Source: Desulfomonilaceae bacterium
Lineage (GTDB): Bacteria > Desulfobacterota > Desulfomonilia > Desulfomonilales > Desulfomonilaceae
DNA: 54,410 nucleotides
NCBI GenBank assembly: GCA_031082285.1
Contig: JAVHLK010000014.1
Coordinates: 3,058-57,467, forward strand
Reading direction: 5' to 3'
The position numbers were made by a program, and so were the translations under genes. This document shows positions 2,826 through 7,234 of this stretch, one piece after another (the first letter of the stretch is position 1; each line of letters starts with the position of its first letter). Under the pieces are notes generated by a model. It did not search any database. It saw only the letters and a program-made list of their open reading frames with translations, and was not told the origin of the DNA.

Positions 2826-2996
2826 TACGGTACCCCCACATCCCCGCAACAGTGGACCGGTTATTCCCGGCTGAACTATTCCTCTTCCCGGTACGTAACC
2901 GATTCGGCACTTCCGGCGGGACGCGGACTATCTCGGTACGCATTCCCGAGCGAGGTCCGGCAACCTAGACGCGGGTTGTGTCGCCTTCAGAAATTC

Positions 2997-3021
2997 TCCG
3001 GAGAGCATGTGCTCTGCCGGA
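2997..3021 (-). terminator. Hairpin downstream of the small minus-strand ORF
   Basis: TCCGG-AGAGC pairs with GCTCT-CCGGA with one bulged base. Read on the minus strand it is followed by a short T-containing run (GAATTTC). It lies 30 bp past the stop of the possible 27-residue membrane peptide, so it may end that transcript. The run of T is weak. Confidence 0.35.
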
Positions 3022-3050
3022 CAAATGTCGTGCGGCCTGCCGCGGCGAGG

Positions 3051-3134
3051 TCAGTTATACATGAATTCGTACAGAGCCACGGCAATGATGACCGCGGCAA
3101 TGACTACGATTTTGATGATCAACGCGCTTTCCAT
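3051..3134 (-). CDS. Possible 27-residue single-span membrane peptide
   Basis: The frame opens with ATG at 3134 and encodes MESALIIKIVVIAAVIIAVA followed by LYEFMYN: one clean hydrophobic helix with a short acidic N-terminus. A plausible promoter on the same strand (TTGCAT-18 bp-TATTAT, 3228 to 3199) lies about 65 bp upstream and a hairpin lies just downstream, giving the outline of a short independent transcript. I see no Shine-Dalgarno sequence before the ATG. The frame stays open upstream to 3281, but those starts lie over or upstream of the promoter. It sits in the 650-bp gap between rimO and pilQ, facing away from pilQ. I recognise no family; the hydrophobic pattern could be chance in a rather AT-rich gap. 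Confidence 0.35.
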   Translation of the reverse strand: MESALIIKIVVIAAVIIAVALYEFMYN

Positions 3135-3198
3135 GAAGAAATCATAGCCGAGGCGGGGGATTTTTGGAACAAAAAACAATCTGCGCCGATGTTCTAAC

Positions 3199-3228
3199 AT
3201 AATATTGTGAGGATACGGTAAAATGCAA
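3199..3228 (-). promoter_or_regulatory. Possible sigma-70 promoter for the small membrane peptide
   Basis: On the minus strand TTGCAT (3228-3223) and TATTAT (3204-3199) are separated by 18 bp. The -35 has two mismatches and the -10 has one. Transcription would start about 55 bp before the ATG at 3134. Confidence 0.35.
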
Positions 3229-3302
3229 AAGTGGCGGCTCTTATACAGATCAAGCGTAACTTGAAATAAAATCTCTATCACACCGTTTTTAGATCTTTTT
3301 TA

Positions 3303-3332
3303 TTGACACAACCACCTCCGCTCTGCTATCAT
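3303..3332 (+). promoter_or_regulatory. Sigma-70 promoter for the pilQ-like gene
   Basis: A perfect TTGACA (3303-3308) is followed after 18 bp by TATCAT (3327-3332). It lies 140 bp before the ATG at 3473 with no other gene between, so the secretin gene is probably transcribed alone, with a leader of about 130 nt. Confidence 0.7.
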
Positions 3333-3472
3333 CCCTTCAGCCTGTCATCCGGCTGAGGATTTTGTTCCTCTGAAAAATGAGCCGGACTGGGTCGCAAAAA
3401 TTCATCACCCAGGGCACCGTGACTTCCGCATGGTCTGGACAGCCTCCACACGGTCTTCGGGAGAGGATAAAA

Positions 3473-6400
3473 ATGAGGTCACCTGTAGCAAGTTATAAAT
3501 CCCTCTGGCTCGGATGCCTGCTTGTCGCGTTGACGCATGTTCCGGCGTTTGCCGCAGTTTCCGGCGAGATCACCGGAGTAGCGCTGGACACTCCGACACC
3601 AACAGTGTCGTGATCGATGCGAAAGGAAAGGTGGGCAAGTACCTGGCACGTGTTATCGGCAACCCTAACAGGCTCGTGATGGACTTTGACGATACGCGTG
3701 TGGGCAACATCCCCCGCAACGTCTCTGTGGGCAAATCCGACATTCACGAGATTCGCGTGGGTGAATTCAAGTCCAGGGCACGTGTGGTGGTCGATTTCCG
3801 TGATCGGCCCGTTCCCGCGTTTAAGGTGAGACGCGAGAACAATCGGATCTCTCTGATGCTCGGAAATTCACTCGCCGATTACCTTCCCAAGGCCGAGACG
3901 GAACGGACGGCAAAGGGTTCCGACGGGGGGGGCAAGAAGTCCGCCCTGACGCCCACCTTTGTGCCGGCCGCGGCCAACGGTTTGGAAGGCGCTGCTGCGG
4001 GAGGAACCGCCCCTGGTAAAGCGGCAGGTTCCGAGCGTGCATCCAAGCTTGTGGGTAAGCGAATTTCGTCCCCTCATTCGTCTCGGAGGGCACACACGGG
4101 AGCACACGGCGTAGACGAGGGTGCGCGTCAAACCGAACGCTCGAAGCTCGATGTCAAAGAAGTCAAGTTGGCGCAACAAATGGACATCGGCAGACCCTCT
4201 TCTTCACAAGCAATGCAAAGTGCCCCGCGGTCGAGTAAGGCGGGTGCCTCTCCATCAACTTCGGTCAATGTACCCTCAACTGCGAGAGGCGGAGAGGACC
4301 GGAGAATGGTTCGCGAGGTCCGGCCTCCCGTTACCCCCCCGACTCCCGATCCGCGGCTCCTGGTTCAGGAGATTACCGAACTGAGGTTCTTCCAGGTCGG
4401 CCACAACTCACGGTTGATGATCCGTGGGGGCGATCAGCTCGACTACCGAATGAACAACGTCAGTCCCACGAAGATCAGGCTGGATCTCATCAATGCAGAG
4501 ATACCCAAGGCCCATCAGAAGCCGCTGAGAACCGATCTCTTTTCGACTTCCGTGGAGATGATCGTACCTGGTTCGCAAACGATATTCATCCAGCTCAAGG
4601 ATTCGGTACCGACGCAAGTTCAGAAGCAGAAAGGCGTCTTGATGATTGATTTTCCGCCGCCCCGGTTCAAGACCGAGCAATCCGGCGATCGAGAAGGCGG
4701 CGGAGAGGCGACTAGAATCATTCAGGAAGAGCAGATTCGCAAGAGTATCGAATCTCGCAACACGGCTATTGAAAGGGTTCAGAAGGATCTTGAGCAGCTT
4801 CAGAAGCAGCGACTTGAGATTTTGAAGAGCTTCCAGGTCACGCCCGACCCGGAGGTCTTTCAAAAGCCGGTCACTATGGACTTTCAAGGCATAACACTGA
4901 GGAACGCCTTCCGACTCCTCGCGGAGCAGGCCGGCGTGAACATCATTGTCGGCAACGAAGTGAGCGGCACGACGACTCTTCGACTGTTTGAAGTGCCTCT
5001 GGGCCAGGTCATGGACACCATATTGAACACCCACGGCTTGGACAGGGTCATGGTAGGCAACGTGATGCGCGTCGGAGCCAAGGGTGCGATCACGACGTTC
5101 AAGGAGGAACGGCAGAAGGAATACCTGCAACGCATGAACGAGGTGGACAAGAGAATCGAGAGCAGCCGCCAGGAGATCACCTCTAACCAGCAAGAGATCG
5201 AACGGTTGCTCGAGGAGCTCAAGACGCTTCAAGAAGCTCCGGTAGACGACACCAAGGCGGAAGAGATCGGTGAAGCGGGCTGTATTGAGTATGAAGGAGA
5301 GCGCATCTGCTTCCAGTACGCCACGGTGCGGGTGGTTTATGCACGGCCGTCTCAAATTGTGACTACGCTCGACTGCCTGTTCCGTTTGAACTGCCCGGGG
5401 GCCCGTGCGGTGGGCAGGCGTGCCACGACGGTCACCAGCGAAGAGATGGGGGACCTTCAGGCCGAGCAGGCCGAGGGACAGATGGGCCGCCAGCAGTACA
5501 TGCAGTACCTGTCCGACCAGGGCTTCACTTCGGACAGTCCAGGTGGCCGTGCGAGAATGCAGCGGTACGATCGGGTTCAGTCCGAGAGGGAAAGGGCCGC
5601 GGCTTCGGCCGCCATGGCGGCCGGGGTTACGCAACAGGGAGGCGGCGGCGTTCAGGTCATGCTGCCGTACGGTGAAGACCCCAAGCTGGCCAGGATCCTT
5701 GCCTACGGAATTATCTGGGCCAACGACAACGATCGGATGATATTCATCAAGGATACGCCCGAGCGCATTGCACAGATGAAGAAGCTCATCTTCACACTCG
5801 ACGTGCCGATACCCCAGGTCCTCATCGAGAGCCGCCTGGTGCTGGCCGGCAAGACCTTTGGCCGAGGCTTGGGCGTCGTCTGGGGCGGTCGCAACAACCA
5901 GGCCGGCCCACTTTCGGTAGACAGGCAGCTTTTCTGGGGATACGCCGGCAACACTGGTAATGCCGCCAGAACGGCCACGGCCGGCACCACCGCCGGCACC
6001 CCGATTCCCTCGCAACTTGCGATCAACCTGCCGCCGACCATTTCGGGCTTCAGCACCGCACAGTCCGTTCCGAGTGCGGCCATGCAGTTTGGTTTTCTCG
6101 CCGGAGACTACCTCACCGAGTTGGATGCCCGCCTCACCCTTGGAGAGAGCACCGGTCAAACCAAGACCATCTCACGACCCAAGGTCCAGGTCGCGGACGG
6201 CCAGAGCGCAATCATCAGCAACGGTCAGCGCGTGCCCTATCAGACGATCACGGTGGAAGGCACACAGACCCAGTTGGTCAACGCGGTGCTGTCGCTCACG
6301 GTTATGCCGAGGATCTATGCGGACGGCAGAATCCGGATGCAGATCAACATAACCGACGACTCGCCCGATTTCACCTTCAGTCCGCCGGTCATCAATACGA

Positions 6401-6621
6401 GAAGGAGTTCCACCACTCTGACGGTAAAAGACGGCGAGACCGCGGTAATCGGCGGCATACTGAGGAATGACGGCGGCGACAGCAGACAGGGAGTCCCGAT
6501 CTTGATGAACGTTCCCGTGCTCGGCTACCTGTTCAGCGCAAAGCAAGCGAGTAAGTCTCTGGCGGAGCTGCTCGTATTCATCACACCCTCAATCGTCAGG
6601 CGTCCTCCGCCTGCATCGTAA
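3473..6621 (+). CDS. pilQ: PilQ-like type IV pilus secretin (frame interrupted near base 3600)
   Basis: This is a predicted outer-membrane secretin through which type IV pili exit. ATG 3473 follows GAGAGGA and encodes a signal peptide (KSLWLGCLLVALTHVPAFA) and GEITGVALDT, the start of an AMIN domain, but that frame stops at 3611. The AMIN domain continues in the frame one base back (TNSVVIDAKGKVGKYLARVI) to 6621. One base therefore seems to be missing between about 3586 and 3600, by sequencing error or mutation; I see no slippery site. Next come a basic low-complexity linker, a second AMIN-like segment (about 4370-4670), a coiled coil (4729-4845), an STN domain (4870-5085), a second coiled coil (5101-5240), a four-cysteine region (5281-5395), and the secretin core with its C-terminal signature (GVPILMNVPVLGYLF). 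The usual pilMNOP genes are not adjacent. A GspD-type secretin is less likely because of the AMIN domains. Confidence 0.85.
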
Positions 6622-6694: not shown

Positions 6695-7234
6695 TCAGGA
6701 AGGGGCGGGGACCTTTTCCAGGAGACGTTTCTTGTACTGTTCGACGGTTCGAGCCAGGTCGCCGGTCGCGTCGGAACCCGCCGGCAGCTTGGGCATTACC
6801 GCGCTTCCAGAAATCCCCCAAGAGGCAAGCTTCTTGGTTTCACGCAGGAGGATCTTTTTCGTGTCCTTGGAGCCAGCCTTTGCCGCGTTCTTGAAGGCTT
6901 CCCGGGCTTCCCTGAGAATCGGCTTGGTCGGTTCGGCCTGGGGCATCTTTGCCAAAAGGTCCAAGTGCTTCACGCCGCGGGCACCGCTCGGCATCTCACG
7001 CACAAGCTCTTCCCACAGATACGCTCCGAGGAGTGCGCGGTCCTCCTCGCTCTCCTCCTGCACCGATCGCAGAATCTGATCACAGCCGGCCGGATCCTCC
7101 ATGAGTTTCACGCGCAGCCCTCGGGCCCTCTTACGGAAGTCTTCCTTGCGAAGGTCTTCCTTCTCTTCGTCGGAAAGGGCCATTCCGCGTGTGCGCTCCA
7201 TGATCAGATCCATTGTGCTTAGGATTTCACCCAA
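6695..7234 (-). CDS. Protein of unknown function, 179 residues, soluble and helical
   Basis: I recognise no family. The product is highly charged and probably all-helical, with no signal peptide or membrane span. It has an acidic-basic N-terminal half (EEKEDLRKEDFRKRARG), a central helix around QEESEEDRALLGAYLWEELV, and a lysine-rich C-terminal half. It carries one cysteine. The TTG at 7234 is preceded by AAGGA with seven bases between, which supports that start over the internal ATG at 7213. It is convergent with pilQ (the pilQ terminator ends 12 bp from its stop) and lies downstream of proA on the same strand, with about 190 bp between, so it could be the last gene of the proA transcript. 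The codon pattern looks like its neighbours, so I think it is a real gene. Confidence 0.65.
   Translation of the reverse strand: MGEILSTMDLIMERTRGMALSDEEKEDLRKEDFRKRARGLRVKLMEDPAGCDQILRSVQEESEEDRALLGAYLWEELVREMPSGARGVKHLDLLAKMPQAEPTKPILREAREAFKNAAKAGSKDTKKILLRETKKLASWGISGSAVMPKLPAGSDATGDLARTVEQYKKRLLEKVPAPS

Follow-up and report, generated by a model that had tools for sequence, protein, structure and literature searches.

An isolated frame break near the start of pilQ, the type IV pilus secretin gene, in a Desulfomonilaceae bacterium

The gene for the type IV pilus secretin found in a 54,410-nucleotide stretch of Desulfomonilaceae DNA (the window, in whose coordinates all positions are given) is divided between two reading frames. 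It is very probably the ordinary pilQ of a Desulfomonile-like bacterium with one frame break that stands alone and amounts to a net gain of two nucleotides relative to its family, at a place that holds no recoding site. The break lies about 40 codons past the start codon, and either a recent mutation or an error in the assembled sequence may account for it. Automatic annotation might label the gene a pseudogene or list it as a PilQ without a leader, and thereby wrongly score the organism as being without type IV pili. A real break would represent a natural pilus-null allele in a population; with an erroneous one, the organism is likely to be piliated.

The two reading frames of pilQ

A ribosome-binding site rich in purines, GGAGAGGA (3460-3467), precedes the ATG at 3473-3475, whose frame translates as MRSPVASYKSLWLGCLLVALTHVPAFAAVSGEITGVALDTPTPTVS and is then closed by the TGA at 3611-3613. 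The first residues of this product, MRSPVASYKSLWLGCLLVALTHVPAFA, have the form of a typical signal peptide, judged by eye to extend over approximately 3473-3553, and are followed by AVSGEITGVALDTPTPTVS before the stop codon. The remainder of the protein is read one base back, in a frame that runs open from position 3499 until its stop codon at 6619-6621 and that encodes 1003 residues from 3610 onwards, with no second break up to 6621 (Table 1). An earlier, sequence-only reading of this DNA had assigned the ribosome-binding site, the signal peptide and the first AMIN residues to the frame of 3473, with its stop at 3611, and the rest of AMIN to the frame one base back. The translation bears out the first of these assignments, and the open frame of 3499-6621, with its domain matches from 3610, the second.

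Table 1. Positions of pilQ, its parts and its upstream sequences in the window
Feature	Position	Strand	Description
pilQ	3473-6621	+	Type IV pilus secretin gene, in two frames
5' part of pilQ	3473-3613	+	Start, signal peptide and first AMIN residues; frame closed by TGA 3611-3613
Remainder of PilQ	3610-6621	+	One frame back; rest of AMIN, STN, Secretin_N and Secretin
Frame break, approximate place	3586-3592	+	Net +2 nt relative to all seven relatives
AMIN domain (PF11741)	3658-3849	+	Model positions 29-97 of 101; 7.2e-11
Secretin domain (PF00263)	6145-6600	+	Pfam match, 1.5e-43
Promoter-like pair	3303-3332	+	TTGACA 3303-3308, 18 nt, TATCAT 3327-3332; putative, read from the sequence
Leader block, ribosome-binding site GGAGAGGA and start region	3435-3483	+	Strongly conserved between relatives

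The identity of the protein is given by the long frame. In this 1003-residue part, AMIN and Secretin exceed their Pfam cut-offs and STN and Secretin_N fall below theirs, whereas the 46-residue first piece, searched alone, has no Pfam match. The long frame by itself scores 293.2 bits against the NCBIfam model of the type IV pilus secretin PilQ (TIGR02515; cut-off 284.35), and its best PDB matches are solved PilQ structures. The gene thus holds the AMIN and Secretin domains of a PilQ and, like the known members of this family (TIGR02515; structures such as 3jc8, 6ve2 and 4av2), it presents AMIN, STN, Secretin_N and a C-terminal Secretin in the expected order, with a signal peptide encoded immediately upstream of the rest. 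It differs from them in that the signal peptide and the start of AMIN stand in another frame than the mature part, a difference seen in this one sequence, and in that pilQ and pilM/pilN/pilO lie on separate contigs. The split into two frames is not due to chance, because the PilQ open reading frames (ORFs) of five relatives each align to the window as two pieces in two frames, which meet or overlap at 3589-3622.

Comparison with relatives and the size of the length change

The match search covered 60 genomes, i.e., the window's own and 59 relatives, all of which gave some match, and 17 of them belong to the same family. The 5' end of the gene was read in seven of these (G001, G003, G005, G006, G008, G010 and G012). 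The others comprise G009, in which the start of a contig cuts the gene, G002, with an AMIN-type match only, and eight genomes (G004, G007, G011 and G013-G017) with a shorter secretin, in open frames of 484-613 residues that match at the C-terminus only and whose 5' ends were left unread.

In every one of the seven relatives read, the start codon, the signal peptide and AMIN lie in a single frame, with the signal peptides again judged by eye. Counted from the first base of the start codon up to the alanine codon of a conserved motif, ARV, this region measures 171 nt in five of them, 168 nt in the other two and 173 nt in the window. The MAFFT alignment places a two-column gap in all seven relatives within 3586-3592. 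By this comparison of sequences, the window is longer than its family by a net two nucleotides, rather than shorter by one. The loss of one base between about 3586 and 3600, which the sequence-only reading had put forward, fits the change of frame and fails on the length of the region. Given that a change of -1 and one of +2 shift the frame in the same sense, the loss of one base is the explanation that a reader without relatives would prefer, and it is corrected here to a net gain of two relative to the family.

A scan of the named genomes with a single protein gave no relative, and a query built from the alignment gave seven loci, one of which (L122) is a distant alphaproteobacterial secretin and another (L119) lacks the 5' end. 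The named loci with a related pilQ belong to Desulfomonile metagenome-assembled genomes (MAGs) and to one Deltaproteobacteria MAG, in addition to the distant alphaproteobacterial secretin, and L116-L121 were not added as relatives beyond G012, G008, G010, G009, G001 and G006. The loci L116, L117, L118 and L120 (Desulfomonile MAGs) and L121 (Deltaproteobacteria MAG) present the start and the order of signal peptide and AMIN as in the window, and the genomes of the first search that match these five share its leader and promoter-like sequence. Unlike the window, all five loci run through the region read in a single frame.

Recoding, phase variation and internal start

The same comparison bears on the idea that the ribosome itself may connect the AMIN and secretin parts with the signal peptide, through programmed -1 frameshifting or an equivalent form of recoding. 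Over 3499-3613 the frames overlap, and to pass from the first to the second takes a shift of -1, the commoner kind of programmed frameshift. In having overlapping frames related by -1, the window resembles the dnaX-type genes, in which -1 frameshifting is programmed. What these genes have and the window lacks is a slippery heptamer and conservation: there is no X_XXY_YYZ heptamer within 3473-3613 that is in register with the first frame, and the frame change is found in 0 of the 7 relatives read, none of which needs a shift. The literature on programmed ribosomal frameshifting in connection with secretins and type IV pili, as far as the portions available go, brought up only protein localisation prediction. 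A device special to the genus of the window would escape a comparison of this kind, given that the six aligned relatives are only 49-53% identical to it in protein sequence. Even so, programmed frameshifting is extremely unlikely, and we infer that recoding is absent. The sequence-only reading had listed it among its options, and had proposed identical sequence in related strains as its sign; the relatives, once compared, have the gene in a single frame in all seven cases, and the option finds no support.

Phase variation, in which a reversible change of length at the site would toggle pilQ on and off, is very improbable as well. In other bacteria, type IV pili are the subject of papers that deal with their phase variation. 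In the window, however, no base occurs three or more times in succession within 3561-3613, and the dinucleotide repeats present in 3473-3613 have two units each, which leaves the earlier suggestion of a phase-variable gene that switches by tract slippage unsupported. It is thus the lack of a heptamer, of a tract and of a shift in the seven relatives that makes both recoding and tract-driven phase variation unlikely.

The long frame may also be imagined to be translated from a start of its own, such as the GTG at 3610 or the ATG at 3514, to yield a leaderless secretin with some other role. The GTG at 3610-3612 does overlap the TGA at 3611-3613, as occurs in coupled genes, but no ribosome-binding site stands at the usual distance from it, the only Shine-Dalgarno-like words in 3473-3613 being GAGG at 3475 and GGAG at 3575. 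In addition, all seven relatives read begin at a conserved ATG, from which the rest of the gene continues in frame, and the product from GTG 3610 would have no signal peptide, whereas a secretin needs export. Given these points, such a start is hardly credible. The chances are just as slight for a gate on PilQ export and piliation that exists in this genus only, and that would act through unrecognised recoding or switching in the first 46 codons with no classical slippery sequence or tract.

The genome and the partner genes of pilQ

The draft genome to which the window belongs (on contig C55) amounts to 5.6 Mb in 314 contigs, and is estimated to be 99.9% complete and 4.18% contaminated. When the genome was searched with PilQ, one long match was obtained, together with two others (contigs C88 and C259) that cover the AMIN part only, and a search for the Secretin family matched in one place only, no second intact pilQ being found. 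The partner assembly proteins are encoded in the genome. Contig C22 carries PilM, PilN, PilO and a PilP-like gene together and uninterrupted, with the first three above cut-off and the PilP-like gene below its Pfam cut-off (19.2 against 25.6 bits). Of the seven T2SSE matches that the genome gave, six exceed the cut-off.

In the neighbourhood of pilQ, the order is ABC transporter ATPase, LolA-like gene, radical SAM/RimO-like gene, pilQ, an ORF in reverse orientation and proA, where RimO and proA are names that we presume from the sequences. This order is repeated around pilQ in relatives, within the extent of the stretches fetched. The reverse ORF between pilQ and proA (6695-7234, - strand) has 179 residues and no Pfam match, and it is kept in the loci of five relatives at about 41-45% identity.

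Survey of frame breaks and decay

Frame breaks were surveyed in 409 kb of the 5.6 Mb genome, with 1238 coding-like ORFs as queries, drawn from 2.15 Mb of relatives' sequence in 108 loci. A total of 203 ORFs matched, covering 42,817 codons with homologues, and the sole break recovered was that of pilQ, through the genes of five relatives, with 0 others in the codons covered. The control of this survey detected 39 of 60 simulated breaks, which means that about a third are missed. An earlier round with 563 ORFs, of which 149 matched, had the same outcome, with pilQ alone.

A first survey, loose and unfiltered, had given six candidate rows in the genome, i.e., pilQ and five others. Four of these five lie opposite better-scoring ORFs of the + strand, and the fifth (C22:16439-16877) contains two members of a run of four tRNA genes, being conserved and non-protein-coding, with a better + strand ORF that overlaps it by just 99 bases. 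All five vanish once the queries are restricted to coding-like ORFs. In the reverse direction, the loose survey gave three rows and the filtered earlier round gave one, an N-terminal stretch in G005. Given the lack of further breaks in the part surveyed, an error-rich assembly is unsupported.

Decay of the gene was examined in seven PilQ proteins, that of the window and those of six relatives, at the columns in which the six others are identical. The window departs privately at 18 of 263 such columns, which falls inside the range of the relatives (7/252, 10/255, 27/272, 13/258, 13/258 and 16/261) and represents no excess of private changes. A long-standing pseudogene is thus unsupported, as there is neither such an excess nor any further lesion up to 6621, and a pilQ with no long decay implies that the break is either very recent or not in the organism. 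A very recent null allele would also look like an unrelaxed gene.

Mutation or error

If the break is present in the cell, ribosomes would make a peptide of 46 residues and then stop, the product of the long frame would have no signal peptide and would stay in the cytoplasm, and no pilus would be assembled through the sole secretin found. Otherwise, the break would be an error of the consensus or of the assembly.

The first of these cases, a real and recent loss-of-function mutation, fixed or segregating, that split the signal peptide of PilQ from the mature protein and abolished pilus assembly, has a little under an even chance. The part of the genome surveyed is free of other breaks and the sole secretin found is the one affected. 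Furthermore, a short insertion away from any base run is a common kind of spontaneous mutation. The mutation would need to be very recent, however, given that there is no decay elsewhere in the gene and that pilMNO is uninterrupted.

An artefact of the consensus or assembly, produced for example by low coverage or by merged strains, in an organism whose pilQ is intact, has close to the same probability. It would agree with a single lesion in an otherwise intact and unrelaxed pilQ, with a genome in which pilMNO and the pilP-like gene are uninterrupted, and with a draft of so many contigs and of the contamination estimated above. Many sequencing errors fall at base runs, and the break has no such run; the surveyed codons also argue against an assembly rich in errors, although they leave room for a rare one. 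A recent mutation, real or at the level of strains, and an artefact are thus about equally probable. The sequence error and the inactivating mutation that the sequence-only reading had named both remain candidates.

Conserved leader and upstream sequences

Upstream of the gene, the TTGACA of the promoter-like pair is kept in all seven aligned relatives, and the second box is variable. In blocks of 30 alignment columns (the window and seven relatives), mean pairwise identity is 0.76 at 3435-3463 and 0.82 at 3454-3483, the latter block taking in the first codons, and the blocks of the 5' coding region from 3474 to 3683 lie below the leader, at 0.48-0.68. One piece, ATGAGGTCA, is kept in the window and in all seven aligned relatives, synonymous sites included.

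A 20-base piece of the leader, with at most three mismatches, stands directly before pilQ in the window's own genome and in 6 of 18 others (G001, G003, G005, G008, G010 and G012). It was also found in three further places elsewhere, which are at chance level, because a reversed control pattern gave six matches in the same genomes. One of these stray places (L131, in G005) lies within an asparagine-synthase-like ORF, so named by eye, on the opposite strand.

A regulatory RNA in the leader was considered and rejected. There was no Rfam match in the leader at gathering scores among eight sources, and the four matches obtained in 2900-3700 were all below those scores (E 0.29-1.3). When the window and four of the seven relatives were folded to a consensus, 0 of 25 pairs had changed on both sides. 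The fold of the window's leader by itself is no better than that of shuffled sequences (z -0.79, with 44 of 200 shuffles as good), so that the two results do not show a structure.

Finally, a very small membrane-protein-like ORF, MESALIIKIVVIAAVIIAVALYEFMYN, occupies 3051-3134 on the - strand, at the end of an ORF of 3051-3281 that has no Pfam match. Matches to it of 26-32 residues occur before pilQ in the loci of three relatives (L034, L070 and L072), and it is possibly, by its sequence, an unannotated small protein.
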